Below are positions 11,947 through 64,000 of a DNA stretch of 64,000 nucleotides, piece after piece. The notes under the pieces were generated by a model. The model was not told where the DNA came from, did not search any database, and was given only the letters and a program-made list of their open reading frames with translations. Each line of letters begins with the position of its first letter. Positions within the stretch are counted from its first letter, which is position 1. The position numbers and the translations under genes are program-made. The stretch is from Owenia fusiformis (lineage: Eukaryota > Annelida > Polychaeta > Sabellida > Oweniidae): contig CAIIXF020000008.1 of assembly GCA_903813345.2 (NCBI GenBank), positions 2,179,341 through 2,243,340 on the forward strand. The letters are read 5' to 3'.

Positions 11947-11955
11947 TTCAACCAA

Positions 11956-23439: not shown

Positions 23440-23946
23440 ATGGCTGATGGCAATGCTGTTGGACGGAAAATTCTCATTCCAATCGACAACAGCACCTATT
23501 GTGAAGATGCGTTCAACTGGTACGCACAAAACATGCATAAAGGTGATAATGAGCTGATCTTAGTCCATTGCCACGAAATGTCAGCCCCCGCAATGCCCTC
23601 CAGGGATACTAATGATTACAAAACCGCTCTTGATGAACATTCCAAAAAGGTCATCGGTTTAATGGAAAAATATAAAGCTAAATTAGAGGAGGCGAAAATC
23701 GGTGGCAGAATTAAAGCCGAGCATGGGAAACCAGGAGAGGTTCTTGTACGCGTTGCTGATGATGAAAACGTTGATGCAGTTATTATGGGCAGCAGAGGTC
23801 TTGGTGCAATTCGTAGGACTGTACTTGGGAGTGTCTCTGATTATGTCCTCAAACACGCTAACTGCCCTGTAATGATCTGTCCAAAGCGTAAAGGTGGCCG
23901 CAAAGACAGTATGGTTACCGACCGTAAAGGCAGTGTAGCTTTCTAG
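23440..23946 (+). CDS. Universal stress protein (UspA-type) family
   Basis: Complete 168-residue frame in one exon. The N-terminus has the first beta strand of the fold (KILIPIDNS) with the conserved Asp, followed by a helix. The C-terminal half carries the ATP-binding signature G-2X-G-9X-G(S/T) at residues 117-131 (GSRGLGAIRRTVLGS), then NCPVMICPK, the usual final strand. Length matches the 140-170 residues of single-domain USPs. Such proteins are small cytosolic nucleotide-binding homodimers linked to stress tolerance; they occur in several invertebrate lineages and are missing in vertebrates. The basic tail (KRKGGRKDSMVTDRKG) is an extra. An acceptor TATTTCCAG ends at 23436, three bases before the ATG, so at least one exon lies upstream, perhaps coding. 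AATAAA at 24604 is a plausible polyadenylation signal. No defects seen. Confidence 0.93.
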   Translation: MADGNAVGRKILIPIDNSTYCEDAFNWYAQNMHKGDNELILVHCHEMSAPAMPSRDTNDYKTALDEHSKKVIGLMEKYKAKLEEAKIGGRIKAEHGKPGEVLVRVADDENVDAVIMGSRGLGAIRRTVLGSVSDYVLKHANCPVMICPKRKGGRKDSMVTDRKGSVAF

Positions 23947-40700: not shown

Positions 40701-42479
40701 CAACATTTTTTAAATCATTTTTACTAGTGTTTGTCGTTAAGAACTTCAGAAATATTCCTGCTTTCTTCACAGATTCTGAATCATGATCAAGTGGTATGGT
40801 CCAAACAACATTATCCTGCCAAGCCTCGCCAAGTGCCAATTTCAATTTTTCACTTTGAACCCGATGTTCAGTATGCAAACTTTTAATTATCTTGATTTCA
40901 TTTTCACGGTCAAATGTTGATGTTTCCAGAATCTGGTCGATTTTGTTGAGATTTGTTACCGCCAAGATGAATTCCTTCTTCTGTAAGGCTATATCGACAG
41001 CATGAAGAGCATCGTGGACTACAACAAGTTTGTCAAGGATTGCTACGATTCCATTTGTTTCTTCAAGCTGGGTTGACAGATCGTGAAACTCACTTGTTGA
41101 GAGATTCAGTTGGGCTTGTAGCTGTAAATATATGAAATAAATGATTAACTCAAGATACATAAACAATTTTTCACTCTTCCCAGAAATCCCATGGAAAAAG
41201 ATCAAAATTCTAGAATGCAAATCCATGGGGCAATGCGATTTTTAAGTGGCTCAATTTCCCTCCAAATATAGTTAAGTACTACAACAAAATGTGACTTACA
41301 ATACATGTACTGTAGGGCTATATTAAAAACCATTCTTTTCTAAAATATTGAAAAAATGCTACTTATTAATCAGCAAGAGGAGTGTATCTTATAGAATCTT
41401 TTAATGTGATAACAACAATTGAGGCAAGAAATGTTGATTTCAAACATCGATTGCTGCATAAAAAAACAATGTATAAAATCATATCAATAGTAGGGATGTC
41501 ACGGGACAAACTTACTATGGGACAGGACGGGAATAATCCATTTCAGGACAGGACTTTCGGGACGAGACAGGACGGGACATAACCAATAAAATAGTTAATC
41601 ACAGTCATACAGTCAGTACATGGGGGTTGTACCGTCCCGTCCCGAGACCAAAATCCCGGGGGACGGGACAATACTGGGAAACTGTGACTTCCCTAATCAA
41701 TAGTGTTATTTACATGTGGTGATGAATAAGGAAATCTAGTTTTTAGAAGTTTTAGGTTGAGGCATTAAGTATACAAATAATATGAAGGGTATATTCAAAA
41801 CTTACTTCTCGTTCTATCTTCCCAGTGACAGTCTGCATATCATTAGAGACAGCATTCACCTTGCTACTCAGCTCAATGGTAGCATCAAGATTTGGGTAAA
41901 AATCACCATAGTGTTTCTGTAGACTATCATACACTTCCGCTTTCACCTCTTCTATTCTCTTTGAGAGACGTCCTAGCTTTGACGTTATGTCTTGTTTTTC
42001 AAGCTGGCCTGAAAATTGTGTTATAGATCATTTAAAAATTGTGTTGATGTAGATAAGAAGAATTTTACAATTAAATCTGAATACGAAATTAAAACATGTT
42101 AACACATACATACTAGCTTTTTCTAGGTCTTGGGCATATCTCCCTATTATGAACCATTAGAATTTCGTGGTAATTGTAATTTGCAAATTTTCCGAAACTC
42201 ACAAAAAACACTGCGTGCGAAAAATTACCTTGAGTACAGTTATAATTTTAAGTTATTTTGTTTACATTGAGATCTCCCCAGCATTTAATCAAGTGGGTGC
42301 TACACCCTACTGAAAATCAGTTTGCACCCTGTCAAAAGGGTGAAATATAGTACATCACTGTTGGGACTAAGCAGCTTTAGAAAGAACCCTGAAATAAATT
42401 CACTTATTTGTTCACTGGGACAGCAATAAGTGACACATTTACCTGCTGTGGCCAAAACCTCCGTCACAAATGATGCCAT
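37784..42479 (-). CDS. zw10: Centromere/kinetochore protein ZW10, complete, seven exons
   Basis: Minus-strand coding exons 42479-42443, 42008-41806, 41121-39980, 39464-39289, 39046-38837, 38614-38480 and 38154-37784 join in phase at GT-AG borders into 757 residues; human ZW10 has 779. The N-terminus [10 protein letters not shown] is the same as in vertebrate ZW10. It is followed by the helical, coiled-coil-like N-terminal region and a helical C-terminal tail ending in [11 protein letters not shown]. In animals ZW10 works with ROD and Zwilch at kinetochores (RZZ complex, which recruits dynein and checkpoint proteins), and with NAG and RINT1 in the ER tether for Golgi-to-ER vesicles. Exon 3 is large (1,142 bp), carrying half of the protein. 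An acceptor TCATTTCAG ending at 42543 shows an untranslated upstream exon. A hAT-type MITE sits in intron 2. The stop codon overlaps AATAAA. No lesions seen. Confidence 0.95.
41491..41695. mobile_element. hAT-type MITE in zw10 intron 2
   Basis: Ends are TAGGGATGTCAC and, inverted, TAGGGAAGTCAC. Perfect 8-bp direct repeats ATCAATAG lie at 41483-41490 and 41696-41703. The interior is rich in GGGACGGGAC/CCGTCCCG words. The 8-bp duplication and TAGGG ends fit hAT elements. Non-coding, 205 bp. Confidence 0.88.
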
Positions 42480-44847: not shown

Positions 44848-45617
44848 TACATCTGGATTATTACATTTCGTAAAACAATTATTTGGATATAGACTACAAC
44901 ATTGATAGAACCTTCTCAAATGGAGACAGATCAGCTAAACTATTCGTTGGCAAAGTATCTTAGTAAATTAACCCTTTATGTTCCGAGTCAGTTTCACTTT
45001 ACTATTCACAAAACTCATTTGAACAGCCAGTAACCTTGCCAAATTCTTTCATAATTATTAGGGGGAGATAATTGAACTGATCTTTTACTTGTGCATGGTT
45101 ATTTTCGTGCAATTTTACTGGAAAACTTGGATATATGCTTCTTGAAACGCACTTATAGGGTCAAGGTCATTGTTAGTACATTTTAAGTACTTAGGCTCAT
45201 TTTAAGTAAGTGTCTAGACACTGAGAAGCTCCATTTAAGTAATCTTTCAAGCATGATTTAAGCATCGGTGTTAAGATTCTACACTTTGCCATCAAAGTTT
45301 TTTCAAGTTACTTAACTGTATAACATAACTTGATACAAGTATAACTTAACTTGATAACTTTATAAACTGGAACCACACTGATCAGCTGTTTGCAAGTTTG
45401 AAAGGAATAGAATTGTTTTTATAAATATTTTATAAAAACTCACTGAATTTACTTCTTGCGTTTGACTGTTTATACTATAGGTTATAAAATTCTGCCCTCA
45501 TTTGATATAAAGTAGATTCTTGATTCAAAATAAACTTCTGACTACATGTAAATTCCAGATAACTTAAGTGAAACTAACATTCAAGCAACAAGCTTTATCT
45601 TAGCTCATATTTGCTAA
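44848..45617. other. Non-coding, nothing identified
   Basis: AT-rich spacer between two mobile elements. Repeated words such as TTTAAGTA near 45180-45240 are noted but form no clear unit. Confidence 0.35.
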
Positions 45618-46289
45618 TAGTGGGGGGAATTTACCCCTATATTTGGCAGAATATTTCAGATGGTGATACAAGTATAAAATTTTGCTTTTCTGCTACTTCA
45701 AACCTTTTTAAAAAAATCTGTCCCTGTGATCAATGGATTTTTTTTACTTTTTCCCCCCAAAATCCAAGATGGCCGACATACTATAGCGCGGAAAATATAT
45801 TTAGCTCTGATTTGGCAAATACAGCTGTAATATAAAGTTTAAATTGTGTTTTCAGGACTAAATGCACTAATAGGGACATCACATAATACATGTTATGAGC
45901 TTAAGTCAAAATAAATAATTATATGGGAGTTAAGCAAGGTTCATTTCTGGCCCCCCTCTTATTTTGTTCATTTATAAGTTTGTATAACCCTACTCCTATG
46001 AATTAAACATAATTAGTAAGACTGTTCTTAAATTTTAGATTTTTATGCTCTGCTACATATCAAATTAGTTTGTATAAATGACTGTAGCCTAAAGAATTGA
46101 AGGATTTTCACAAATAAATGGTTTATCGAGTACAGACATTTACCATACATTCACAATTACAGACTATTACAGCGACATCAGGACAACTAAAAGCAAATTC
46201 AATTATTCATTAAATTTTGGTTGAGGTTAAAAACATTAATACAGTCCATCAATGTATTCTATGCATTATTGAGTATGAATATGAAATAT

Positions 46290-47480
46290 GTGGTTTTCCG
46301 TGACTCGTCAGTAAGGAGGAATGAAATACCAAGCAGGAAGGTGATGTGAAATTTGAGTAAAATTTGCAAAATTTAATCTAACAAAAATCTACCATTATTT
46401 GTAGAATTTTGATTAAATGTAAAATATTAATTCATCCCATAAATATATCTTATGCATTCTTTCACGGTGTCCAACCCAAACGCTCTTACATGCACAATGG
46501 AATGTTTCATCCACGCGGAAACGGGGCTAATGAAGATCCCACTTTGACTGTAAGTATTGTTTCATTAGTTTCTCTTACATATCACGCGTTATGGTGACAT
46601 ATTATGTACCATTCGATGAACAATACCCTGATCAAAGCTCCATAGTGTAGATCAAACAAATCTGAAGTTGACGAATTGACCACAAATTACGAATTAAATT
46701 AGTATTTATATGAAATTTGCTCTAAAACATAAAACTATTGACAAATAAACAAAAAGTTTATATGTGAATTAATCTTTCTTCTTTTGATGCCAAGGGATAC
46801 AATAGACCTTTTCTTTCTCTCCTTGAAAAGGAAAGTTGAGCCTAGTACCGCAGTGTTTCCAGTTCACTGTGTTAACCAGATCGCAGCATTTCTTGAATAT
46901 GAGAATGTTATCATTTTTAAGACTTGATTTTTTGTTATCAAATCACGATTACGATAATGTATGGTTTGATCAAGGTTTGGAATTTGACCAAAATATACTC
47001 GGATGCTCAACTCAACTAGTCGCATGTCTCGACAAACAGGGTTTTGACCGGAAGAATGACAAATACGTTTATGAATTTTGATAACTATACTGCTTAAGAC
47101 AGCTCTTCCTAATTGCTTCAAACGTCGACAGCCATCCAAGTACAATATATCACACCTATCAAATGGTATACTTGAAATAAGTAACACATACTTCTTATTC
47201 CCATCATTGGGGAAATTGTCAGATGACTCATCATTTCAATTCGCCATACTCCAGAGCGTTTCTTTGTTTAGGTTCAGTAATGAAACCCTCAATCTTGCAT
47301 GTAAGAGCGTTTGGGTTGGACACCGTGTCCTTTAATTGTGAAAATCAAATATGTGGGATGTCATGACTCCTCAGTAAAGAGGAAGGAAACGATTGGAGGG
47401 AAGATAATTTAAAATTTGGGTAGGAATTTGCTAATGAGAAATTAAATCTTCCAAAATTTTACAATTATTTTGAATTTTTA
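46290..47480. repeat. Pair of 130-bp direct repeats around an inverted-end insert
   Basis: Sequence from TGACTCGTCAGTAAGGAGG (about 46305) recurs as TGACTCCTCAGTAAAGAGG (about 47356) with matching downstream bases. Between them lies the 46463-47327 unit. This could be a host duplication or the remnants of long terminal repeats; no retroelement genes were seen. Confidence 0.4.
46463..47327. mobile_element. 865-bp unit with CACGGTGTCCAACCC inverted ends
   Basis: CACGGTGTCCAACCCAAACG and a further 11 bases at the left are mirrored exactly at the right end. The interior has a 60-codon open stretch after Met near 46899 with protein-like composition (NVWFDQGLEFDQN), unrecognised, and overlapping frames on the other strand. 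The 8-9 bp flanks do not match. Confidence 0.45.
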
Positions 47481-48192
47481 AATTATCACAATTTCTAAAT
47501 AATATTTAATGAACATTTAATTTTGTAATGTGTGGGGCTAAGGCCATGGATGGTTTTTTAAGAATAAACAAAAATGAATATAAAATATGGTAAAAAAATC
47601 TATTCTAACATTTTGCAAACATGACATATCTGCAACAACTGCATATACTAGGGCAACAGCCCAACTCATATGTGGGTGTTTTCCATATACAGAACAAGTG
47701 AAACAATTGATATAAATACACCCAGAAAGTGCTTATTTTGCAAAAAAAGAAAGACCAATCGAGAGAATTCCACCTACTCACATGCCTTGGAATAGCACAT
47801 TAAAGGAACAGCTTACCAGGCTGGTGTAGTTTGGGGACAAATGCTAAATGCTTCACCACCTGGCCTTTACAACTACATCAACTGGGGATGGGACAATAAT
47901 GAAACTGTTACCCCACTGTGGACAACCCAGACACAGTCCTCCAAAGCCTGCCAAGCTCTTGTACAATGTTCATATAAAAAGCTATGTTCTGTATTCACTT
48001 GTAAAAAGCCAGGACTTACATTTTGTGACAGTTTTTATGAAATTGAAATTATAACAGAGTAAAAAAGATCCATGTGGAACTCCTTCAAAGGCTATTTTGT
48101 ATTTGGAAGACAATAATTTAATTTGAACCTGAAATATAAGATAAAATGATGTTTGAAATATTATCTTTATTCAAGAAAACAGGTTCATTTAC

Positions 48193-48802
48193 TTAAAGGA
48201 ATATTCCTTGCCAGACCCTTTCTCTCTTGATATGGTAGCTATAGTCATATATATAGTTTCCATATTTAGCAAAACATGGGAAAATGTTTTAATATGGTCA
48301 ATATTGATAATTTAAAAATCTCGTGCTTATTTCCAGTGAGCTGCCATCTTTTAAGATTTCTTGCAGGAAGTGATGTCATCAACACTCAACTTCTATAACC
48401 CTGCCCATAACAGTATAAGAAAGTAGCACAAAATCACTTCTAGACAAATGATCATTACTTTCTGTGCAAAAATATTTTCAGGGCTTGTCAACTTAGAATA
48501 AAAGAAGAGATTTTCAGAAGGATTAAATAAGATACAAAGTTGAAAAAGAATATTTAGCTGGTTTTGTAATTCTTAATAGCTCCTCACCTAATGCTATATG
48601 CAAAGTTGAGAGTCGATGACATCAATTCCTGTGTGAAATTTTAAAAGATGGCAGCTTACTGGAATTGAGCATCACATTTCTAAGTGATCAAATTTGACCA
48701 TATCAAAACATTTTTGCGTGTTTTGCTAAATATGGCAAGCATAAATATGGTTATGGCTACCATATGAGGAGAGAGATGGTTTGGCAAGGAATATTCCTTT
48801 AA
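48193..48802. mobile_element. TTAA-targeted foldback element, 610 bp
   Basis: TTAA borders both ends (48193-48196, 48799-48802). Inverted arms of about 270 bp start AAGGAATATTCCTTGCCA and share GCTGCCATCTTTTAA and GATGTCATC. A sister repeat at 49440-49490 (GGTTCATTCACTTCAATTGT) lacks the insert and pairs with the flanks GGTTCATTTACT and GTTGTTGCAAAATAAG, so it serves as an empty site. Fits piggyBac-type TTAA insertion. Confidence 0.8.
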
Positions 48803-49180
48803 GTTGTTGCAAAATAAGAGCCCTCTCAAAATACTAGATGTAAACAACATGCTTTACTGCTAAAACAGTATTATTTTTAAACCACATTTATCTCTATATA
48901 TGAATCTACAGTAGTGTTATTTGTACCAAATTATGCGTATATGGTGGCCATTTTGAATTTTTTTGGTTATGGCTACCATATGAGGAGAGAGATGGTTTGG
49001 CAAGGAATATTCCTTTAAGTTGTTGCAAAATAAGAGCCCTCTCAAAATACTAGATGTAAACAACATGCTTTACTGCTGAAACAGTATTATTTTTAAACCA
49101 CATTTATCTCTATATATGAATCTGCAGTAGTGTTATTTGTACCAAATTATGCGTATATGGTGGCCATTTTGAATTTTTTT
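48749..49180 (+). repeat. Recent 216-bp tandem duplication
   Basis: 48749-48964 and 48965-49180 are nearly identical. The unit includes the right tip of the TTAA foldback, so the duplication took place after that insertion. Confidence 0.85.
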
Positions 49181-50030
49181 GGAAATACTGTTCGGTTTTA
49201 TCGATCACAGGGATGAAATTTTTCCTAATAGCATAATAACAGATGTAAAAAGTCAGGACATACATGTACAGACTTGTGCAATTGCACATGCAATTCTGTA
49301 TAAGTCATTAACATTTTATGACAGTATATATGAGATTGTGATTATAACCATGTGGAACTCCTTTAAAGGCTATTTTATACTTGTAAGACAATAATTTAAC
49401 TTGAACTTGAAATATTAGATTGAAAAGATGTGTGAAATATTATCTTATTCAAGAAAACAGGTTCATTCACTTCAATTGTTGCAAAATAAGAGCCCTCCCA
49501 AAATAGAACCTTGTAGAATCCCTATATAAAGTCATTTTGTCCAAATTCAAATCATTAATGAATGTGACTGTATTTCTAGATGTAAACAACATGCTTTACT
49601 ACTGAAATAGTATTATCTTTAAACCACATTTATCTCTATATATGAATCTATAGTGTTATTTGTACCAAATTATGCATATATGGCGGCCATTTTGGATTTA
49701 TTTTGAAATGGTGTTCGGTTTTATCGACCACAGGGATGGAATTTTTCCTAATAGCATAATAAGAGATGTAAAAAGTCAGGACTTACAAATACAGACTTCA
49801 GTTGTTGCAAAATAAGAGCCCTCCCAAAATAGAACCTTGTAGAATTCCTATATAAAATCATTTTGTCCAAATTCAAATCATTAATGAATGCGACTGTATT
49901 TCTAGATGTAAACAACATGCTTTACTCCTGTTCCAATATTATTTTTAAACCATATTTATCTCTATATATGAATCTAGAGTGTTATTTGTACCAAATTATG
50001 CCTATATGGCGGCCATCTTGAATTTTTCTT
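48804..50030 (+). repeat. Four subterminal repeat units of the 4.5-kb element
   Basis: Each unit starts GTTGCAAAATAAGAGCCCTC (48804, 49020, 49480, 49803), passes through GTAAACAACATGCTTTACT and TCTCTATATATGAATCT, and ends near GGCCATTTTGAATTT. Two later units carry an extra AATAGAACCTTGTAGAAT block. No coding role. Confidence 0.8.
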
Positions 50031-50153
50031 GAAATAGTGATCGGTTTTATTGATCACAGGGATGGAATTTTTCCTAATAACATAAATAACAGATTAAGCC
50101 ATTAAATTTGCTTGTATCACCAATTGAAATATTTTCCAGCAAATTCCCCCCAC

Positions 50154-50897
50154 TATAAGGGCTTCTTTGAATAATAATCACTCGCAATAAGTCATACATA
50201 TATTTTCCCAGAATTACTCAATAGGTACAGATAAAGTACAATCAAGGATCTTACTTTCTGATTTAACCCTTGTCTTATTGATTATATTAATAAGAATTTC
50301 ATTCACCCTGGTTCCTAGTCGTTACGCCAAACATCATTTACTTCCACTGTTTTGTTACTTGTGTGTTTAAATGGTGAACTAGTAAAATTATACTCTGGTG
50401 AGTTTGACCATGGGCTTTCAACTAGTCTAGTTGAAAGCCCATGGTTTGACAGACTCTTGATTTGAATAGCCTACTTTAATTCTTACAAAATTGCCCACTT
50501 TAAGTGTGAACAGTAAGCTTTATATACAGCTCGAAGTCCATCGTAGCCCTCTATTGGCTAAGACTTCCACCTGGTTATACTCACACCCAGACTTGATACT
50601 TATTTGGTACAACTTAATACTGGGCCCATTTAGAATCTGGAGTCTGTTGCTATTTGCCTTTATGAGATATACAACTTACATTGAAAACTGACAAATCTTA
50701 CTTAGTCTATATTCAGATATTGGTATCCTGTAACTGTCATCCCGAAATTATCCAGGAGACACGAAAATATGTATCCCACAATGCAACAAAAAAGGACAAA
50801 TTTTGATTGGTCGATTATATCCCAAAATGCATTTTGCATCCTTATTGCAAATGGCCGACAATAAATCTAAAAAAAATGTGAAAATACGACTAAAATC
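50154..50897. other. Spacer upstream of the SAP-SWIM-YqaJ remnant
   Basis: Contains the perfect 37-nt hairpin at 50408-50444 and otherwise nothing recognisable. A promoter cannot be placed. Confidence 0.4.
50408..50444. repeat. Perfect 37-nt hairpin
   Basis: CCATGGGCTTTCAACTAG, one T, then its exact reverse complement. The stem is 18 bp with a one-base centre. It is not a terminator (no T run); it may be a cruciform-prone palindrome or a small inverted duplication. Confidence 0.9.
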
Positions 50898-52676
50898 ATG
50901 GATAATCCCGATAAAGCTACAGTTTCGCAACTCAAATCATATCTGAAGGACTAAGGAGTAACAAATTCAGGGTATCGTCGTTCGGAATTGATTAACCTCG
51001 TAAAAACAAGTGCAGAAACCAGACTTGAACAACTTCAAAAACTCACGGAAAACAGCTTTTCAACTGTAAATTTGAGAACGGTTGGAGATGTCGTGTATTT
51101 TGACCCAGAACAAGGTGGTCAGTGGTCAGACAATCTAAATAAAAAAATGCCGCCTGTTGATCTCTCTCACTGCTTAACATATGCCAAGACTAAGTGTTGC
51201 TGGGGTGTGAAAAGACTGATAAACTTTCAAAAAGATGATGGCTTTAGACTTTTCCAGACAGGATTTATAAATGATGTCAAAATAGCAAATGCAGGAAACA
51301 ACCATGTATTCATCAAATCAACATGTACACGAGAGACCTCTCTAAATGAGGCACCATACAAAGTATGAGTGCAACTGAACACCAATGGAAATTGTCTCTG
51401 TACATTGCTATTGCCCAGCGTAAGTTATGCTTACAGAAAACATTTGTTGTTGTAAACTTTGAATCCTATCACAATAATCCTAATGACAGTTTACTTTATT
51501 TTGACATGTTAAATTGTTTATATTTTACATGACATGGTTCGTTGTCGCTGTTTAATATGATTCTTTATAAATTCTGAATAAAAAAGCCTAACTTGATAAA
51601 AACTGTCTCAGTTGAAGTTTACCTTCCCATGGTGAAAAAACATGTAGTTTAATCATATTAATTATTTTTGCTTCCAGGGGAACAAGCGATACATGTAAAC
51701 ATGTCATGGCCCTTTTGTTTTCTTTGAATGCTTTCCATGAGAGACATCTCGATTGTAGTCTTGAGACCTGCACCGACAAAGCTTGTAAATGGGACAAACC
51801 TCTCAAAGTTTCGAAGCCACAACTTTGGAATGATATTGATTTATGTCTCGACGACTCAACACCTCATCCCAAAAAAACCAAGATTGATACATACACACCA
51901 TATTCTGAACATATGATAAGAGACAAGGAAAATGAAAAAAACTATTATCGGTAATCAAAGATTCATCAATAGATGAAAATGATTGCATGGCATAGCATAT
52001 CTTGGGCTCTGATTCCGAGTAGGATTGTGATGATGACAAACGCCATGTTGATATATTATCTGTCCCGGATTTAGTTAGAGGCATCAACCACAGTGATTTT
52101 GTGGTAACTCTGAAAGATTATTACACTAAGGACAGGTGTGATGAAATAGAGGTGTTGACGCGTGGTCAATCTGACAATGAGTATTGGAGGAAATATCGCA
52201 CCGGCCGTATTACATCTTCAATAGTTCATGCCATCAGTCATGCTACTGACACTACCATGGCAAAGAAAGACAATTATTTGCTAAAGAAAATCCATAGTCA
52301 AGAACACTTTACCCCAGCTGCAACTGATTTTGGTATTAAGCACGACGATGAAGCCAGGATCCTTTATCAGTCTTCCATGAAAGAGAAACACAAGAAATTT
52401 CAGTGTAAACAATCTGATTTTGTGAAAAACCACTCCCTTCCTATTTTGAGTGGAAGTCCAGATGGTGTCATCTCTTGTGAATGTTGTGGAAGGGGACTTT
52501 TAGAAATCAAGTGTAGTTATAAGTACATGTATAGGAATGAATTTACGGAGAAACAATCTGGTTATAAGTGCTACTTTGATGAAGGTAAATTAATTTTAAA
52601 AAAGAATACTAACTGGTATAGTTTTGGGAGTGGTGACTTATACCATGTCTTGAGACATCACCCGTTGTGAACACGC
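50898..52676 (+). pseudogene. Decayed SAP-SWIM-YqaJ exonuclease-type gene
   Basis: Three parts lie in order. First, ATG at 50898 opens a SAP-like DNA-binding motif (VSQLKSYLKD, then GYRRSELINLV) broken by TAA at 50952. Second, a SWIM zinc finger is split by a 258-bp intron: HCYCPA (51403-51419), donor GTAAGT, acceptor TTGCTTCCAG, then CKH (51694-51702). The join is in phase. Third, 52101-52670 encodes a YqaJ/lambda-exonuclease-type nuclease core: RTGRITSS, GIKHDDEARILY, SGSPDG near 52452 and LLEIKC near 52500, the G-E-D-ExK series. Lesions: TGA at 51366, a frameshift near 51387, a frame change near 51952, stops at 51993 and 52020, and a shifted C-terminus after about 52610, where the last Gln-containing helix would be. 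A CxxxxCxW segment (51770-51795) lies between SWIM and nuclease. YqaJ nucleases resect DNA ends in phages; animal SWIM-YqaJ proteins are of unknown role and may be transposon-related. Confidence 0.75.
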
Positions 52677-52830
52677 ATCAAGTCATGCAATCTGTGTCAA
52701 AAGGTGAACGGTCTCGTTTAGGGGACCTGGGAGATATAGTCTAGTGTCTAAGCTTCCCCGAACCACCGTCAGTGATTATGTGACAGGTAGAGTATATTTA
52801 GTTGATCCTAGGATGATGACATTGGTTGCT

Positions 52831-52888
52831 ATTGTATTTTTACAGGAAAATCATATTAGATTGTATTTTTACAGGAAAATCATATTAG
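52831..52888 (+). repeat. 29-bp tandem duplication
   Basis: Two exact copies of a unit beginning ATTGTATTTTTACAGGAAAA, just downstream of the YqaJ remnant. Confidence 0.85.
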
Positions 52889-53045
52889 ATTGTATGCACT
52901 GAAAAAATCGGTTTGGTGAATCATATTGTCCCTTCTTATCGCTATGTATAATAATAATCATATATTATAATATATTTCAAAACAACTGCTATGTCTTTTG
53001 ATGCACTGTTCATATCAAGGAATAAAATGATATAACACCAAATTT

Positions 53046-53811
53046 TAGTCGGTGGTAGTACTAGTATGTCTCATTCATAAAAATATTAAGATAACACTCT
53101 ATAACATATGTTTTAGATTCCCAGTTTGACTAACTGCAAATATAGGAATCTAAGTTATAGGTTTTGAAATGTATTTTCAGCATAGAACTCAAGGTAGAAT
53201 GGGCAAGTTGGCCGATGAAACCCAATTTGTGGCTGTTCATCAAGAAATTGAAGTTGACACCCCTATTTATGGCTGTTAAAGAAATTGAACATTGGGTGTC
53301 TCCCAACCACACCATCCCTTCTTCAGGTTTTGCCAAGTGCATGCAAATCCCACTATGGACGTTTTGAGAAATGTGGAAATTGTAGAAATGGTCATGCTAA
53401 ACTGTCAAGTGCCAATGCCACAAAGCTCATCGTAATATGAAAACTTCAACGAAAGGAATGTCCATGCACTTCTAACTAGACCAACTAACTTGGGGATGTA
53501 CTTTTTGGGAGCTTAATATAAATTGTTTTCTATACAAATATATTTAGCAAAGAATTCTATGGCCATTGAATTAGAACAGCAGCTATAGAAGATGTAGACA
53601 TCAGTGTTTGACCCTTAGAAAAGATGGAACCGGGAGAGATCTGGGTCAGTTCTATATTATGCACATATCACTGGTGAAAAAGGATAAGATTTCCTTATAT
53701 CCTCCAGCAAAAAAAACTTCTTCAATTTCTGATTATTGAGTAAAAGATTAAAAGTTATTCCTCTTCTACAAAGATATATGGCAGAAAATACAAACTGTTG
53801 AAAGATTTTAA
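53046..53811 (+). repeat. Left edge of the NHL/SGNH array, copy of 58245-58795
   Basis: From AGTATGTCTCATTCATAAA on, this aligns with 58250 onward, which directly follows an SGNH fragment. The copy therefore begins inside the tail of that fragment, giving the array a sharp left border at about 53046. It also holds a Cys-rich open piece (53323-53439, CGNCRNGHAKL) that I do not recognise. Confidence 0.65.
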
Positions 53812-54048
53812 AAACCAGGCAGTTGTCGGGGTGAGTTAGATTACCCCTATGGTGTCTGCACAGATGGATCCATTCACATCCTGGTTGCAGACATGGACAA
53901 CAACAGGGTACATCTGAAACTTGATGGAAAATTCCAATGTATCTGTTGACCAAGGAAGATGGTACGATCTGTTGCCTTCAACCAGGAGGGGCAGCTGGTA
54001 GTGGGAGACAGGAATGGTAACATCTTCACTGTTACAAACAGGAAGTGA
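53812..54048 (+). pseudogene. NHL-repeat fragment 1 (TRIM-like C-terminus)
   Basis: One reading frame with a single TGA (about 53947) encodes the typical tail: YGVCTDGS, HILVADMDNNRVHL, then SVAFNQEGQLVVGDRNGN, NIFTVT and a final RK stop at 54048. NHL repeats form a beta-propeller used for protein or RNA binding in TRIM-NHL proteins. The upstream head (AAACTGTTGAAAGATTTTAA) joins straight to this tail, so the middle is deleted. Confidence 0.7.
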
Positions 54049-54939
54049 AGTAAATTATAGGAAACAAAACATTTAGAAATTAGTAAATATCATCTAAAAC
54101 TGCATTATTATAAAATTAGAAAATATCATCTAAAACTGCATTATTACAGACTTTATTATACTTCCAGTGCTAAATAATGAGCCAAGCCATTTAACCTTTT
54201 GCATGCTAACTTAATTCAGCAAATATATCCCACGCGACTGACTTATTTTTCAAAGAGTGCAAAAAATGATATGCCTGGACTAAATAATTAATATCTCAAT
54301 AACTACTGAATGAATCTCGATAAAATTTTCACAAAGAGAAGATACATTGGCCTGGCTCATGAAAAAAATGTTCTAATGAATTTTTTACATAAATAAACAG
54401 GACTGGGCATAAATATACCATGAATACTCCTCCGGAATCCGCCGCTTCGCCCCTGTGGAGATTCAACGTCTGGTCAGAATCCAAAACTGAATTTGCAGCG
54501 ATCAAATGTTCATTTTTCAGTTCAGAAAATATTCTAGTTTCTATTTACGATGACCATTATCGGCTTCCAAGAGCCTAAAGAGCTCGAAATCGCGATCCAT
54601 TTCCTCCACATGTTCGTTGTGATCGTATTTGGCCGCCATTTTGTACGATTTGTTCACTAAAAACGACTTAAACACTGTTTAAATCGTTGAATTAAGAAAT
54701 ATTTTTCGAAACATCGCCATTTCTAGGTCAACAGGAAGTCCCAACGTAAGGACTAAATAAATCGGGCAATCTGATTGGATCATAAGTCCGGCGGGAAAAA
54801 GTTAAGTTTTTGAAAGTTTAAATTCGACTGGAGTCGCCGGCAGTTGCCGGGGATTGTTAAGCACGGGCGACTACGCTCGCCGGTAGCATGCTAAAGGTTA
54901 ATGTGTACACTGGAATGTTCAATATCTAAGAAAAAGAGA
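54049..54939. other. Spacer inside the array
   Basis: Includes a short tandem copy (TTAGTAAATATCATCTAAAA-like, near 54080-54140). A more GC-rich, non-array insert follows at about 54190-54900, with a CpG-rich 3' part (GGAGTCGCCGGCAGTTGCCG) and a GCATGCTAA(A)GG-like inverted edge: CCTTTTGCATGCTAA near 54197 against TAGCATGCTAAAGG near 54884. This looks like an independent small inserted element. Confidence 0.4.
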
Positions 54940-55428
54940 ACCTGCAGCTGAGCTAAAGCTAAAGGGTATTACATCAACCCCTGCAGGTGAGCTGCTGGTG
55001 TGGGATGCAGCCACCAAGACAGTGTACCGTGTGAATCCATCCAATGAAGACATGACTTCTCTGTAGAAGCCAGATACATTCAAGGACCCTTACTATGTGG
55101 AATCAACCACAAACAATGTCATCAAAGTTAATAACTACAATACTCATTGTATTAAAAGATTGGATAGAGATGGAAGTGTTGCTTTTACGTATGGGAAGCC
55201 AGGCAGTTGTCATATGGTGTCTGTACAGATGGATCTGACCACATCCTGGTTGCAGACATGGACAACAACAGAGTAAATCTCCTTAACCATTATGGTAAAT
55301 TCATTCCTTATCTGCTGACCAAGGAAGATGGTTTGTACAACCCACAATCTGTTGCCATCAAGCAGGAGGGGCAGAAGGTAGTGGGAGACAGGAATGGCAA
55401 CATATTCACTGTCACATACAGGAAGTGA
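54940..55428 (+). pseudogene. NHL-repeat fragment 2
   Basis: Begins PAAELKLKGITSTPAGELLV, continues through TKTVYRVNPS, an in-frame TAG near 55063, YYVESTTNNVI, HCIKRLDRDG and a frame change at about 55203. It then reads VCTDGSDHILVADMDNNRVN to NIFTVTYRK and a stop at 55428. About 160 residues of propeller are recognisable. Compared with later units it uses VESTTNN in place of VASTTSD, so at least two subfamilies exist. Confidence 0.75.
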
Positions 55429-55609
55429 GGTAAATAGAAAACAAAACATTTGAAAAAAAATGATTACATACCATCTAATACTGGTTTATTACATGCATAT
55501 AATGTTTAGAAATACATTATTTATTATACTAAATGATTTCAAATTAAGAAAATTATATATTCAGTGATTTTACATCAAAAGAGATCAAAAGTAAGACTGC
55601 CTGTGCTAA

Positions 55610-55978
55610 ATGTACCAAGCCACTCCTAGGTCACTCTTTTGTAAACCATTTGTCCAATGCCCACCTGCCCTTCCAGGTTTTGAGTTTACTTTGCATGTAT
55701 TGCCATGTGCGAAAGTACCACGGGTTAGGAGCAAGATAGCGAGAACGCACGATAGACTCAATATAGACGCTAGCCTGGTGCTACTCCAAATAGGGGAAAA
55801 CGACATTCCAACCCCTTCCAGGAACATTCTTACATCCCCTCCCTCCCCTTCCCTTTCACCCTTTTCCTCCCCGAACCAGCTGGCTGAGGATATTACCAGA
55901 CATATTGGCTTTCAATCCCATTGTGGACACTGTCATCATTGGGTCTCTGTTTCCCAGGGGGTGGTCTAAGTCAGACAA
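55610..55978 (+). pseudogene. SGNH-hydrolase-like fragment A
   Basis: Encodes an N-terminal SGNH/GDSL-like half: the GHSFVNHL block (in another frame at its start), PALPGFEFTLH, AKVPRVRSKIARTHDRLNI and LVLLQIGENDI, the G-x-N-D block. No His/Asp catalytic tail is seen. A Pro/Ser-rich stretch and LAEDITRHI follow. Similar domains occur in invertebrate retroelement-linked and orphan proteins; the role here is unknown. Confidence 0.6.
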
Positions 55979-55989
55979 ATTTCTCAATA

Positions 55990-56358
55990 GATTGCAACAT
56001 TCCAGTGGACTCGCTATGTGGCATCAACAACATCTGATGTCATCATAGTCAGCAACATGGAGGCTCATTGTATAAAGGCTTGGATAAAGATGGCTGGGAA
56101 GTTTTTAAATACGGGAAGGACGGCAGTGGTCCGGATGACTTATACAACCCCTTTGGTCTCTGTACAGATGGATCAAACCACATCATAGTTGCAGACAACA
56201 CCAACCTCAGGGTACATCTCTTGACCCCTGATGCTAAATTCATTCGCTATCTGTTGACAAAGGAAGATTGTACGATCTGTTGCAATCAAGCAGGAGGGGC
56301 AGCTGGTAGTGGGAGACAGGAATGGCAACATATTCACTATCACATACAGGAAGTGAGG
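55990..56358 (+). pseudogene. NHL-repeat fragment 3
   Basis: Covers TRYVASTTSDVIIVSN, a small frame change at about 56066, KGLDKDGWEVFKYGKDGSG, LCTDGSNHIIVADNTNLRVH and RYLLTKED. A frameshift (about 56270) then scrambles the last strands. The upstream part of the propeller is missing; it joins SGNH-type sequence directly. Confidence 0.7.
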
Positions 56359-56689
56359 TAAATAGAAAAAAAACATTTGAAAAATGAGTATATACCATCT
56401 AATACTGGTTTATTACATGGATATAATGTTCAAAAATATATTATTTATTATACTAAATGATTTCAAATTAAGAAAATTATATATTCAGTGATTTTTCAAT
56501 CAAAAGAGATGAAAAGTAAGACAGCCTGTGCTAAATGTACCAAGCCATTTAATGTGTGTATTGGAAGGCTCAAGATCTTCCTAATTCCCAAGAGGTGGAC
56601 AGGACTAAGGACTTGAGGGTCTGCAGCTGAGCTAAAGCTAAAGGATTTGAGTATCCCATTCCCCATCCCACCCCCTCATTCATCTGACC

Positions 56690-56950
56690 CTGTAACTAAA
56701 GTGGCCATCTTAGGTCACTCCCTTGTAAACCATTTGTCCAATGCCTCACCTTCCCATTCCGGGTTTTGAGTTTACTTTGCACGGATTGCCAGGTGCGAAA
56801 GTACCACGGCTTAGGACACATGATAGACTCAATATAGACGTTAGCCTGGTGCTACTCCAAATAGGGGAAAACGACATCCCAACCCCTTCCAGGAACAATC
56901 TTACATCTGCTCCGGGGTCCACACAAGCAAGACCCCCACTTTATACATAA
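56690..56950 (+). pseudogene. SGNH-hydrolase-like fragment B
   Basis: Copy of fragment A: VAILGHSLVNHLSNA, a frame change near 56757, GFEFTLHGLPGAKVPRLRTHD and VLLQIGENDI, ending after a Pro-rich tail in TAA. It lacks a 15-bp piece (SKIAR region) present in the other copies. Confidence 0.6.
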
Positions 56951-57026
56951 AGAAAAAAACATCATTTATTCAATTTATTAATTATTATTCTGAAAATAAA
57001 AGATTTAAAGTTATGAATCTTCTACA

Positions 57027-57600
57027 ATGATCTATTACAGAAAATACAAACTGTTGAAAGATCTTAAAAAGAACAACTCTCATATAACATCAACTTCACA
57101 TGGCCAACTTGCATTTACCAACGTGACCAACATCATAAGTGTCTATGGTTTAGACAGGACCCCCAAATTGAACCTCATGTGTAGAAAACCTGCAGCTGAG
57201 CTACAGCTAAAAGGTATAACATCAACCCCTGCAGGTGGGATGCTTGTATGTGATCAACCCACCAAGACAGTGTACCGTGTGAATCCATCTACTGGAGATA
57301 CGACTCCTCTCATCAAGCCTGGTACATTCCAGTAGCCTCGCTATGTGGCATCAACAACATCTGATGTCATCATAGTCAGCAACTTCAGTGCTCATTGTAT
57401 TAAAGGCTTGGATAAAGATGGCCAGGAAGTTTTTAAATACGGGAAGGAAGGCAGTGGTCAGGGTGAGTGGCAGTATCCTAATGGTGTCTGCACAGATGGA
57501 TCAAACCACATCATAGTTGCAGACAACACCAACCACAGGGTACATCTCCTGACCCCTGGCACTTTCTTTCATTCGCTAATTCAAACAATATATTTAACAA
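57027..57600 (+). pseudogene. NHL-repeat fragment 4 (longest unit)
   Basis: Carries the leader YKLLKDLKKNNSHITSTSHG, a GQLAFTNVTNIISVYG segment, ITSTPAGGMLVCD and TVYRVNPSTGDTTPL. After a TAG at 57333-57335 it continues with RYVASTTSDVIIVSNFSAHC through EVFKYGKEGSGQGEW, VCTDGSNHIIVADNTNHRVH and LLTP, then breaks into non-homologous sequence. A single stop separates two otherwise clean frames, so this is the best-kept copy. Confidence 0.75.
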
Positions 57601-57894
57601 AGAATTCTATGACGATTGAATTCGAATAGCAGTGTTTGACCCTTAGATAAGATGGAACCAAGTTTATCTGGTCGGTCAGTTTTAATATTATCTATGTATC
57701 ACTGGTGAAAAAGGATAAGATTTGTTAATATTCTCTATCAAAGCTACCTTTTCTTGTGAAATTTTATTATTATATATCATAGGCTTCATATGCAGCATTG
57801 GCTTTATTATGGCTAGCATGAACCGGTGACTTAGAGTATGGGCCTAAGTTGCATTTCTCTCAGCTGTAGATTATGAAATGTTTTTTGTAGTGAG

Positions 57895-58194
57895 ATGAGG
57901 GTACCCAGAGTACTTCTTTTCGGGCACAGCCTTATAAAACAGATGGAAAAACCAGGAAAGAATTTATCCAAAGAGACCAAACAGAAATGTCTTTCATCGC
58001 TGGATCTTAAAGAAGATGAATACCTCTTACACTACGAGGGTGTGCCAGGTGGCAATTTGAAAAAACTTGATGACAGACCGATATGGGACTCTATGACTTA
58101 CTTTGATACCATAGTTGCTCAAATTGCCGGGAATGATGTACAAAACTATGAAATGTCCCAGACAGAGTTAAATGATTTATTAAAGAGAGTTTAG
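57895..58194 (+). pseudogene. SGNH-hydrolase-like fragment C, distinct type
   Basis: A clean 99-codon frame: VPRVLLFGHSLIKQM (GHS serine block), GVPGGNLKKL (Gly block) and IVAQIAGNDVQNY (G-N-D block). The frame is closed by TAG at 58192. Beyond the stop the same frame reads KKMRMVLLEILVSS, the next strand of an SGNH fold, so the TAG looks like a nonsense change. Differs from type A/B. Catalytic Asp/His are not seen. Confidence 0.6.
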
Positions 58195-58739
58195 GCGATG
58201 GTGAAGAAGATGCGCATGGTTTTACTTGAAATTCTTGTCAGTAGTAGTATGTCCCCTTCATTAAAGAATATTAAGATAACAATCTATAACATACATTTTA
58301 GATTTCCAGTTTGACTGCAAATATAGGAATTTAAGTTGTAGGTTTTGAACTGTATTTTCACCATGAAACTCAAGGTAAAATGGGCAAGTTGGCCAATGAC
58401 ACCCCAATTTGTACAATTTGTAATAGGAAAACTTCAACGAAAGGAATTTCCAGACCATTCCAACTAGACAAACTAACTTGGGGATGTGCTTTTTGGGAGC
58501 TTAATATAAATTGTTTTCTATACAAATATATTTAACAAAGAATTCTATGGCCATTGAATTAACACAGCAGCCATAGAAGATGTAGACATCAGTGTTTGAC
58601 CCCTAGAAAAGATGGAACTGGGAGAGATCTTGGTTGGTTTTTATATTATGCAGGTATCACTGGTGAAAAAGGATAAGATTTCCTGATATCTTGCAGCAAA
58701 AAAAAAACTTCAATTTCTGATTGTTGAGTAAAATATTAA

Positions 58740-58990
58740 AAGTTATTCCTCTTCTACAAAGATATATGGCCGAAAATACAAACTGTTGAAAGATTTTAAA
58801 AATCCATTCACATTCACATCCTGGTTGCAGACAGTGACAACAACAGGGTACATGTCCTGACACCTGATGGTAAATTCGAACGTTATCTGCTGACCAAGGA
58901 AGATGGTATGTACAATCCTCCACATTCTGTTGCCATCATTCAGGAGGAGCAAATGGCAACATGTTAACTGTTACATACAGGAAGTGAGGT
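58740..58990 (+). pseudogene. NHL-repeat fragment 5
   Basis: Short remnant with HILVADSDNNRVHVLTPDGK and RYLLTKEDG followed by SVAIIQEEQ, frame broken near the end. The surrounding sequence from 58245 matches the array's left edge at 53046. Confidence 0.6.
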
Positions 58991-59129
58991 AAATTATAGA
59001 AAACAAAACATTTAGAAATTAGTAAATATCATCTAAAACTGCATTATTACAGAGTTTATTATACTTCCAGTGCTAAATAATGAGTCGAGCCATTTAATGT
59101 GTATACTGGAATGTTCAAAATCTTCCAAA

Positions 59130-59660
59130 TTCCCAAGAGGTAGACAGGACTAAGAAATAAAGAGCATGCAGCTGAGCTAAAGCTAAAGGGTATAACATCA
59201 ACCCCAGCAGGTGAGCTGATGGTGTGATTACACCACCAGTAAAGTGTATCGTGTGAATCCATCAAATGGAGACATGACTTATCTGAAGAAGCCAGATACA
59301 TTCAAGGACCCTTACTATGTGGAATCAACCACAAACAATGTCATCATAGTAAGTATCTACAAAGACTCGTTGTATTAAAAGATTGGATAGAGATGGGAGT
59401 GTTGCATTTACGTATGGGAAGCCAGGCAGTTGTCAGGGTGACTTAGATTAGTCTGCACAGATGGATCCAACCAATTCCTGGTTGCAGACAATGACAACTA
59501 CAGGGTACATCTCCTGACCCCTGATGCTAAATGCATTCGCTGTCTGCTGACCATGGAAGATGGTGTGTACAATCCACGATCTGTTACCATCAACCAGGAG
59601 AAACAACTGTTAGTGCGAGGCAAGAATGACAACATCTTCACTGTTACATACAGGAAGTGA
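59130..59660 (+). pseudogene. NHL-repeat fragment 6, strongly decayed
   Basis: Close nucleotide relative of fragment 2 (GAGCTAAAGCTAAAGGGTAT; GGAATCAACCACAAACAATG) but with several stops and frameshifts. The end still reads as an NIFTVTYRK-like tail before TGA near 59660. Confidence 0.6.
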
Positions 59661-60001
59661 CGTAAAATATAGAAAACAAAACAATTGAAAAATGATTATA
59701 TACTATCTAATACTGGTTTATTAAATGCATATAATGTTCAAAAATACATTATTTATTATACTCAATGATTTCAAATTAAGAAAATTATATATTCAGTGAT
59801 TTTTCCATCAAGAGAGATCAAAAGTAAGACTGCCTGTGCTAAATGCAACATGTGCCAAGCCATTTAATGTGTGTATTGGAAGGCTCAAGTCTTCCTAATT
59901 CCCAAGAGGTGGACAGGACTAAGGACTTGAGGATCTGCAGCTGAACTAAAGGAGTTGAGTATCCCATTCCCCATCTCACCCCCTCATTCATCTGACCCTA
60001 T

Positions 60002-60345
60002 AACTAAAGTGGCCATTCTAGGTCACTCCTTTGTAAACCAGTGACTTCAGTGCTCATTGTATTAAAGGCTTGGATAAAGATGGCTGGGAAGTTTTTAAAT
60101 ACGGGAAGGACAGCAGTGGTCCAGATGACTTATAGAACCCCTTTGGTCTCTGTACAGATGGATCAAACCACATCATAGTTGCAGACAACACCAACCTCAG
60201 GGTACATCTCTTGACCCCTGATGCTAAATTCATTCGCTATCTGTTGACAAAGGAAGATGGTACGATCTGTTGCCATCAAGCAAGAGGGGCAGCTGGTAGT
60301 GGGAGATGGGAATGGGAACATATTCACTGTCACATACAGGAAGTG
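60002..60345 (+). pseudogene. Fused SGNH start and NHL fragment 7
   Basis: GTGGCCATTCTAGGTCACTC, the start of an SGNH A-type copy, runs for about 40 bp and changes at about 60040 into GACTTCAGTGCTCATTGTAT, the middle of an NHL unit. That is a sharp deletion or recombination joint. The NHL part has a TAG near 60133 and a frameshift near 60260. Confidence 0.65.
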
Positions 60346-60639
60346 AGGTAAATTATAGAAAACAAAACATTTGAAAAATGATTATATACCATCTAATACT
60401 GGTTTATTACATGCATATAATGTTCAAAAATACATTGTTTATTATACTAAATGATTTCAAATTTAGAAAATTATACATTCAGTGATTTTTCAATCAAAAG
60501 AGATGAAAAGTAGGAGTGCCTGTGCTAAATGTACCAAGTCATTTAATGTGTGTATTGGAAGGCTCAAAATCTTCCTAATTCCCAAGAGGTGGACAGGACT
60601 AAGGACTTGAGGATCTGCAGCTGAGCTTAAGGATTTGAG

Positions 60640-60915
60640 TATCCCATTCCCCATCCCACCCCCTCATTCATCTGACCCTGTAACTAAATTGGCCATCCTA
60701 GGTCACTCCTTTGTAAACCATTTGTCTAATGCCCCACCTGCCCTTCCGGGTTTTGAGTTTACTTTGCATGGATTGCCAGGTGCGAAAGTACCATGGGTTA
60801 GGAGCAAGATAGCGAGAACACAGACTCAATATAGACGCTAGCCTCCAAATAGGGGAAAACGACAACCCCACCCCTTCCAGGAACATTCTTACACCCCCTC
60901 CGGGTGTCCACACAA
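60640..60915 (+). pseudogene. SGNH-hydrolase-like fragment D
   Basis: A-type copy with LAILGHSFVNHLSNA, PALPGFEFTLHGLPGAKVP and RSKIART. The frame is then lost where part of the sequence before the G-x-N-D block (CTAGCCTCCAAATAGGGG) is deleted. Confidence 0.6.
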
Positions 60916-61039
60916 ACAGGACCCCCACTTTACTTTGTTTACATGTCAGCTCTGGCATACATAAAAGAAAAAAACTTCATTATTCAATTTATTAATTATT
61001 GTTATGAAAATAAAAGATTTAAAGTTATGGATCATCTAC

Positions 61040-61545
61040 AATGATCTAGGACAGAAAATACAATCTGTTGAAAGATCTTAAAAAGAACATCTCTCATGTA
61101 ACATTAACTTCAGATGGCCATCTAGCATTTACCAACGTCACCAACATCATAAGTGTCTATGGTGTAGATGGGACGCCTGCATGGGGCATCACCTGTAGAA
61201 GAGCTGCTTGTATGTGATCCCACCACCAAGACAGTGTACCGTGTGAATCCATCTACTGGAGATACGACTCCTCTCGCCAAGCCTGGTACATGCCAGTCAG
61301 TGGCCTCGTTATGTGGCATCAACAACATCTGATGTCATCATAGTCAGCGACTTAGTGCTCATTGGATAGAGATGGCCTGGAAGTTTTTAAATACAGGAAT
61401 AAGGCAGTGATCAGGGTGAGTGACAGTATCCCCATGGTGTCTGCACAAATGGATCAAATCACATCATAGTTGCAGACAATACCAACCTAAGGGTACATCT
61501 CCTGACCCCTGATGCTAAATTTTTATATTCTTATGCTCTTTCTTC
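61040..61545 (+). pseudogene. NHL-repeat fragment 8
   Basis: Starts the regular 0.8-kb tandem section. Leader, LAFTNVTNIISVYGVDG and TVYRVNPSTGDTTPLAKPG are recognisable. Frame changes occur near 61205 and 61290, and pieces of the HCIKGLDKDG block are missing. Confidence 0.65.
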
Positions 61546-61829
61546 TGAACCCTCTGCTGTTCCGGCTAACTCAAACAATATATTTCACAAAGAATTCTAT
61601 GACGATTGAATTTGAACAGCAGCTATAGAAGATGTGGACATCAGTGTTTGAACCTTAGAAAAGATGGAACAAGGAGATCTGGTTGGTCAGTTTTAATATT
61701 ATCTACGTATCACTGGTGAAAAAGGATAAGATTTGTTAATATTTTCTAGCAAAAAGAAAAAAAAAAAAAAACTTCATTATTAATTTCTGATTATAAAAAT
61801 AAAAGATTTAAAGTTATGGATCTTCTACA

Positions 61830-62365
61830 ACGATCTAGGACAGAAAATACAATCTGTTGAAAGATCTTAAAAAGAACATCTCTCATGTAACATTAACTTC
61901 AGATGGCCAACTTGCATTTACAAACGTCACCAACATCATAAGTGTCTCTGGTGTAGATGGAACCCCTGCAAGTGGCATCACTTGTAGAAGACCTGCTTGT
62001 ATGTGATCCAACCACCAAAATAGTGTACCGTGTGAATCCATCTACTGGAGATACGACTCCTCTTGCCAAGCCTGGTACATTCGAGAACCCTTGCTATGTG
62101 GCATCAACAACATCTGATGTCATCATAGTCAGCGACTTCAGTGCTCATTGTATCAAAGGCTTGGATAAAGATGGTCGGGAAGTTTTTAAATACGGGAAGG
62201 ACAGCAGTGGTCCGGATGAGTTATAGAACCCCTGTGTTGTCTGCACAGATGGATCAAAGCACATCATAGTTGCAGACAACACCAACCTCCTGACCCTGAT
62301 GCTAAATTCATTCGCTATCTACTGACCAAGGAAGATGGTGTGTTCAATCCATGATCTGTTGTCAT
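61830..62365 (+). pseudogene. NHL-repeat fragment 9
   Basis: Open from about 61957 to 62223: VYRVNPSTGDTTPLAKPGTF, YVASTTSDVIIVSDFSAHC and KGLDKDGREVFKYGKD, ending at a TAG. Downstream pieces of the VADNTN and LLTKEDG blocks follow in broken frames. Confidence 0.7.
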
Positions 62366-62664
62366 TTTGATATTCTTATGCCCTTTCTTCTTGACCCTCT
62401 GATGTTCCTGCTAATTCAAACAATATATTTCACAAAGAATTCTATGACGATTGAATTTGAAAAGCAGCTATAGAAGGTGTGAACATCAGTGTTTGACCAT
62501 AAGAAAAGATGGAACCAGGGAGATCTTGTTGGTCAGTTTTTATATTATCTACGTATCACTGGTGAAAAAGAATAAGATTTGTTAATATTCTCTAGGAAAA
62601 AGAAAAAACTTCATTATTCAATTTCTGATTATTGAAATAAAAGATATAAAGTTATGAATCTTCT

Positions 62665-63190
62665 ACAATGATCTATGACAGAAAATACAAATTGTTGAAA
62701 GATCTTAAAAAGAACATCTCTCATGTAACATTAACTTCAGATGGCCAACTAGCATTTACAAACGTCACCAACACTATGGTGTAGATGGGACCCCCGATTG
62801 GGGCATCACCTGTAGAAGAGCTGCTTGTATCGTATCACCAAAACAGTGTACCGTGTGAATCCATCTACTGGAGATACGACTCCTCTCGCCAAGCCTGGCA
62901 CATTCCAGTGGCCTCGCTATGTGGCATCAACAACATCTGATGTCATCATAGTCAGCAACTTCAGTGCTCATTGTATCAAAGGCTTGGATAAAGATGGTCG
63001 GGAAGTTTTTAAATACGGGAAGGAAGGCAGTGGTCAGGGTGAGTTATGTGACCCTTTGGTGTCTGCACTGATAGTTCCAACAACATTATAGTTGCAGACA
63101 AGTTCCACAAAAGAGTATATCTCCTGATCCCTGAAGGTGAATTCAATGGCTACCTGCTGACTGAGGAAGAATGTGTGTTCAACCCATGAT
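62665..63190 (+). pseudogene. NHL-repeat fragment 10
   Basis: About 839 bp after fragment 9. Open from about 62825 to 63091 with the same blocks, FSAHCIKGLDKDGREVF and GSGQGEL; then a frameshift in the VCTDGS region and a diverged tail (DKFHKRVYLLIPEG type). Confidence 0.7.
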
Positions 63191-63499
63191 CTGTTGTCAT
63201 TTTGATATTCTTATGCCCTTTCTTCTTGACCCTCTGCTGTTCCCGCTAATTCAAACAATATATTTAACAAAGAATTCTATGATGATTGAATTGGAACAGC
63301 AGCTATAGAAGATGTGGACATCAGTGTTTGACTCTTAGAAAAGATGGAACCAGGAGATATGGTTGATCAGTTTTAATATTATCCATGTATCACTGGTGAA
63401 AAAGGATAAGATTTGTTAATATTCTCGAGCAAAAAAAGACTTCATTATTAAATTTATTAAATATTGTTCAAATAAAAGATTTAAAGTTATGAATCTTCT

Positions 63500-64000
63500 A
63501 CAATGATCTATGACAGAAAATACCAACTGTTGAAAGATCTTAAAAAGAACATCTCTCACTAACGACAACTTCAGATAGCCAACTTGCATTTACCAACGTC
63601 ACCAACATCATAAGTGACTATGGTGTTGATGGGACCCCGCATGGGGCATCACCTGTAGAGTAGCTGCTTGTATGTGATCCAACCACCAAAACAGTGTACC
63701 GTGTGAATCCATCTACTGGAGATACGACTCCTCTCGCCAAGCCTGGTACATTCCAGTGGCCTCGCTATGTTACATCAACAACATCTGATGTCATCATAGT
63801 CAGCAACTTCAGTGCTCATTGTATTAAAGGCTTGGATAAAGATGGTCGGGAAGTTTTTAAATATGGGAAGGAAGGCAGTGGTCAGGGTGAGTTATGTGAC
63901 CCTTTGGTGTCTGCACTGATAGTTCCAACAACATTATAGTATATCTCCTGATCCCTGAGGGTGAATTCCTGCGCTTCATGCTGACTGAAAATGAAGTATA
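63500..64000 (+). pseudogene. NHL-repeat fragment 11, cut by window edge
   Basis: About 835 bp after fragment 10 and its closest relative. Open from 63694 to 63939 with identical block order and the same frameshift after GQGELCDPL, so the two copies were duplicated after that lesion arose. Continues past the window. Confidence 0.7.

Follow-up and report, generated by a model that had tools for sequence, protein, structure and literature searches.

A decayed, intron-containing gene remnant with a YqaJ nuclease core in the annelid Owenia fusiformis

Structure and decay of the gene

What did the decayed gene at positions 50898-52670 once encode, and from what kind of gene does it descend? The locus lies on the plus strand of a 64,000-nucleotide stretch of the Owenia fusiformis genome, the whole of which is referred to here as the window. 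It holds a single decayed gene that begins with a SAP-like motif, continues with a SWIM zinc finger and ends in a YqaJ/alkaline-exonuclease core (Table 1). We regard it as the intron-containing remnant of a gene for a DNA-cutting enzyme, most likely ordinary genome debris. The coordinates given in an earlier note on this DNA proved correct: an ATG lies at 50898 and the last in-frame stop at 52668-52670. Stops lie just upstream of that Met in the same frame.

The earlier note had also described decay by several stops and frameshifts, and this was borne out: the gene is disabled by two frame changes and no fewer than four stops. In exon 1, stops at 50952 (inside the SAP-like motif) and 51366 are separated by 137 open codons, and a frame change falls between 51369 and 51406. 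In exon 2, a frame change near 51950 precedes two stops in the linker (Table 1). The YqaJ part then stays open for 215 codons up to the stop at 52668; the expected number of open runs of at least 215 codons in the 64-kb window is approximately 0.007. A perfect 29-base tandem duplication was seen at 52831-52888, just downstream of the gene.

Table 1. Features of the decayed nuclease gene, with positions numbered from the first base of the window
Feature	Position	Strand	Remarks
Exon 1 remnant	50898-51419	+	Start Met; SAP-like motif at about 50919-51005; spacer without Pfam match; CYCPA at 51406-51419
Inferred spliceosomal intron	51420-51677	+	258 nt, phase 2; donor GTAAGT at 51420, acceptor TTTTTGCTTCCAG ending at 51677
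Exon 2, first part	51678-51954	+	TCKH half of the SWIM finger, then linker; frame stops at 51952
Decayed linker	51955-52022	+	Stops at 51993 and 52020; frame change at or just before its start
Exon 2, YqaJ/alkaline-exonuclease core	52023-52670	+	PF09588, PF01771, PHROG 149; C-terminus of the domain lost or decayed
Motifs of the YqaJ core	GRITSS 52203; FGIKHDDEA 52329; SPDG 52455; CECCG 52476; EIK 52503	+	

Protein domains

The translated pieces were compared with Pfam by hmmscan. Over 52023-52667, YqaJ (PF09588) scored 44.3 bits against a cut-off of 22 (E 2.9e-11) and Viral_alk_exo (PF01771) scored 36 bits against a cut-off of 20. The YqaJ match covers profile positions 2-124 of 150 and contains SPDG and EIK, which we take to be catalytic motifs of the YqaJ/lambda-exonuclease core. 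Between these two motifs lies a CECCG cluster (52476-52490) that might mark an animal form of the domain; on this point the pattern scans described below brought up no relative. Phage profiles gave a further match to the same core, PHROG 149 exonuclease, at 36.8 bits (E 2.9e-9). The best matches among solved structures were two alkaline exonuclease chains, presumably herpesvirus proteins, at E values of 0.025 and 0.026 that are not significant alone; one unrelated chain also matched, at E 0.48. A structure model made from the single sequence, with no alignment, had a mean pLDDT of 32.5, too poor for the PD-(D/E)XK fold to be assessed.

The two accessory parts scored lower. SWIM (PF04434) reached 19.9 bits against a cut-off of 19.6, and did so only in a 50-residue peptide that joins both exon ends; when 50898-52700 was read unspliced in six frames, SWIM was not listed at E values up to 10 in any of them, SAP appeared in none, and YqaJ appeared in the coding frame only (41.8 bits). 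With one stop given as X, SAP (PF02037) scored 12.6 bits, below its cut-off of 23.9, and the SAP-related Ish1 model scored 20.4 bits (E 6.5e-4), below its cut-off of 26.6. In the long read-through frame Pfam did not list SAP, and Ish1 went down to 18.8 bits. A minus-strand match to PIRT within the gene was below the Pfam cut-off and was taken as chance. The YqaJ domain is thus firm, the SWIM finger is at the line and the SAP motif is suggestive only. The earlier note had named the gene as SAP-SWIM-YqaJ and proposed a profile search that would tell against it if two of the three domains fell below threshold. One of them, SAP, did so and the proposal survived; the order of the parts, a YqaJ score above its cut-off and a SWIM score just above (in the spliced form only) speak for the name, but its first element stays below the cut-off.

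A predicted intron within the zinc finger

The predicted splice joint interrupts the Ala codon of CYCPA behind its second base, and the joined reading, CYCPAGTSDTCKHVMALLFSL, gives CYCPA followed across the joint by GTSDTCKH. The GC content of the intron is approximately 28%, against 38-39% in the flanking exons. With strong splice pairs defined as a GTRAGT donor and a pyrimidine-rich acceptor 60-1000 nt apart, the 64-kb window holds 62 such pairs on the plus strand, where GTAAGT occurs 15 times, and 82 on the minus strand. Only one of these 144 pairs, that at 51420/51677, places the pattern CxC-x(4-16)-CxH across its joint, which supports the earlier note's claim that an intron divides the SWIM finger between CPA and the CKH half, in phase.

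When any GT was joined to any AG, the loose pattern CxC..CxH arose in 66 of 160,989 joins on the plus strand and 120 of 171,116 on the minus strand, and CxC..CKH arose in 2 and 13 joins, respectively. Both of the plus-strand CxC..CKH joins share the donor at 51420, the alternative acceptor at 51686 giving a shorter finger. On these counts the finger motif alone is weak evidence; the fuller pattern CxCPA..CxH was found once in the 332,105 joins, at 51420/51677. We consider the predicted intron at 51420-51677 within the SWIM finger to be well supported. Since the intron was retained, the gene was probably copied as DNA and not via mRNA.

Genomic surroundings

The neighbours of the remnant include zw10 (39961-41241, minus strand), a SET/MYND gene (9871-11976, minus strand), a universal stress protein gene (23419-23943, plus strand) and NHL-repeat genes, which together with introns fit an animal genome. 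An array of duplicated NHL-repeat gene units occupies 53057-64000, in which 53057-53230 is 86% identical to 58240-58412 and 53432-54194 is 77% identical to 58420-59097. The similarity of the nearer NHL unit to the other unit at 58240 begins at 53057, which leaves the nuclease gene beyond the edge of the duplication.

On the upstream side, a repeat block at 48191-50094 contains a unit of approximately 216 bases twice at 99% identity and related units of approximately 300 bases at 92%, and within it lies an inverted pair, 48191-48392 and 48603-48804, at 83%. An open frame of 88 codons at 47796-48059 has a cysteine-rich end and no Pfam match; it seems to resemble CXC-type proteins of invertebrates.

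Search for transposon partners and ends

The flanks were searched with Pfam in six frames with stops given as X, a method that recovers the decayed YqaJ domain and that a gene more decayed could escape. No DDE, THAP or HTH transposase domain was listed at E values up to 1 in 46000-50980 or 52600-57580, which reach about 4.9 kb to either side of the gene, and no transposase domain was found in the six frames of 50898-52700 either. Matches in the flanks to Nup98_GLEBS, DUF6283, p53-inducible11, Beta-prop_EML and Bradykinin were below the Pfam cut-offs and were taken as chance.

Inverted pairs flanked by AT and starting with GG, as the ends of ISL2EU transposons usually do, were sought among 35 candidate left ends (45000-50898) and 31 candidate right ends (52601-58600); five settings yielded 0, 0, 0, 1 and 0 pairs, not above shuffled sequence. 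Neither among 6 inverted pairs from one comparison nor among the 25 longest of 286 from another was there a convincing inverted repeat bracketing the gene. A near-perfect palindrome of 39 bases, with two 19-base arms 1 base apart, lies at 50407-50445, approximately 450 bases upstream of the gene. It was rejected as an element end, its sole partner beyond the gene among the 25 longest of the 286 pairs being a 20-base pair at 80%. No second copy of the gene was found in the 64-kb window, where the YqaJ piece matched elsewhere only over 15 residues (E 0.8).

Searches for relatives

Among 50,697 phage records searched by tblastn, eight matched, at E values of 0.2 to 0.8 and 27-31% identity. The description of the exonuclease as phage-type, made in the earlier note, thus stands at the level of profiles, where PHROG 149 matches, but not at the level of single phage records, none of which did better than E 0.2.

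In IMG/VR, a strict motif pattern had no match, and a looser pattern picked out two contigs, phage-like from their ORFs, neither of which held a relative. In one of these two contigs the YqaJ piece found a match of 17 residues (E 0.015) and three further matches at E 2.6-3.4, all taken as chance; the other gave none. In a protein scan of IMG/VR, two stretches fit a pattern and none was confirmed. GTDB contigs gave no match to the strict pattern, and in a protein scan of them 15 stretches fit a pattern, with none confirmed. The strict pattern was derived from the window itself, where its single match is uninformative. The null results from IMG/VR and GTDB say little about an animal gene.

Origin of the nuclease gene

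Animal ISL2EU transposons are described as carrying a DDE/THAP transposase together with a second ORF that has a YqaJ exonuclease domain (PMC4482050), and the same two ORFs are described in PMC9179366. According to the former paper, ISL2EU families occur in 14 host species, all animals; their target-site duplications are AT, they average approximately 4.8 kb in length, and what their additional ORFs do is called unknown. Other genome papers touch on YqaJ in several ways. In one scallop, the YqaJ, THAP and HTH_Tnp_4 families contracted together as transposition-related genes (PMC10225492); in a clam, YqaJ and herpesvirus alkaline exonuclease domains were among the most expanded and were termed endogenous viral elements (PMC7826175); in a weevil, YqaJ orthogroups were filtered out as transposon-related (PMC13289751); and a gene-family table gives YqaJ with "+ 6" (PMC8805230). 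PMC5718144 does not mention YqaJ.

The gene studied here belongs to this known kind, the YqaJ nuclease of the sort carried by ISL2EU transposons, with which it shares the YqaJ exonuclease domain at twice the cut-off (44.3 bits against 22). We do not claim membership of ISL2EU itself, because the transposase and the ends were sought in the flanks and not found. The remnant differs from such elements in that neither transposase, inverted ends nor target-site duplication was found and in that the copy is dead. Neither SAP nor SWIM is mentioned in the main text of PMC4482050 or PMC9179366, and introns are likewise unmentioned in PMC4482050 (0 occurrences); these papers therefore give no proof that the second ORF of ISL2EU is built in this way. 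The SAP-SWIM-YqaJ combination is not named in the titles and abstract openings that were found, a sample that leaves most subscription journals outside its coverage, and it may have been published nonetheless. Invertebrate proteins annotated with both SWIM and YqaJ are present in public protein databases.

We think it likely that the remnant descends from the second gene of a DNA transposon of ISL2EU type (PHIS/Harbinger-like superfamily) and is now a dead copy. In favor of this are the YqaJ and Viral_alk_exo matches above cut-off, neighboring genes that fit an animal, the retained intron and the disabling lesions, besides the papers cited; against it, in addition to the points above, are the lack of a second copy in the 64-kb window and the viral label given to such domains in the clam. 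Decay or truncation may account for the missing transposase and ends. The earlier note had left the role of the gene open between a transposon accessory and a captured recombinase; the accessory role is favored by the accounts in PMC4482050 and PMC9179366, but no transposase was found beside this copy. In an active element, cutting and joining would be the task of a THAP/HTH/DDE transposase, and the SAP-SWIM-YqaJ second protein would bind transposon-end or flanking DNA via its SAP motif and zinc finger. The YqaJ core, of the lambda-exonuclease type with a presumed PD-(D/E)XK fold, may then shorten DNA ends, by trimming or resection, as the element is excised or the DNA is repaired.

The chief rival to this reading is that the remnant is a degenerate copy from a host gene family, in which an old YqaJ recombinase of viral or transposon origin was captured long ago, retained for a role in repair and amplified through segmental duplications, with this copy now dead. 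The intron of spliceosomal type would suit such a history, as would the failure to find a transposase and terminal repeats nearby and the position of the locus next to the duplicated NHL-gene array. However, that duplication starts at 53057 and excludes the gene, the window has no second copy, and in the scallop YqaJ contracted together with THAP and HTH_Tnp_4 (PMC10225492). Neither the local layout nor the scallop record is a strong objection, and we hold the host-family origin to be unlikely. More doubtful again is that SAP-SWIM-YqaJ genes spread or were kept independently of a DDE transposase, in which case they would form an animal family of their own, with introns and a phage-like exonuclease, that is either a selfish element or a domesticated end-resection enzyme. 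The phage YqaJ/lambda-exonuclease family itself (PF09588, PHROG 149) shares the catalytic profile with the gene (44.3 and 36.8 bits), but differs from it in the intron, the SWIM and SAP-like parts and the absence of a phage record better than E 0.2.

A transposon of the KolobokE type could also be imagined as the source, since a PD-(D/E)XK lambda-exonuclease-like nuclease has been described in such an element (PMC9587614). In KolobokE the transposase domain precedes the nuclease, whereas here the nuclease comes after SAP-like and SWIM parts in a gene with its own Met, just upstream of which are in-frame stops, and no DDE domain was listed upstream in 46000-50980; we regard this source as very improbable. 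Equally improbable, in our judgment, is descent from a large DNA virus, a piece of which, with a herpes-like alkaline nuclease, would have become endogenous. This would accord with the Viral_alk_exo score of 36 bits and the weak matches to solved alkaline exonucleases (E 0.025 and 0.026), with the use of the term endogenous viral elements for such domains in the clam and with the presence of YqaJ in some herpesviruses, as reported in PMC7826175 and PMC7000910, respectively. Yet YqaJ outscores Viral_alk_exo, the gene has an intron and other accessory parts (SWIM and SAP-like), Pfam listed no viral gene in the flanks searched and the IMG/VR scans yielded no relative.

Implications

Should the ISL2EU-type origin be true, its main use would be in annotation. 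The YqaJ model and the viral alkaline exonuclease model are here matched by a single protein, and we infer that counts of such domains as endogenous viral elements, of the kind given in PMC7826175, may include transposon accessory genes. The order SAP-SWIM-YqaJ would also offer studies of the additional ISL2EU ORF a definite protein to work with, though only an intact copy would be usable.
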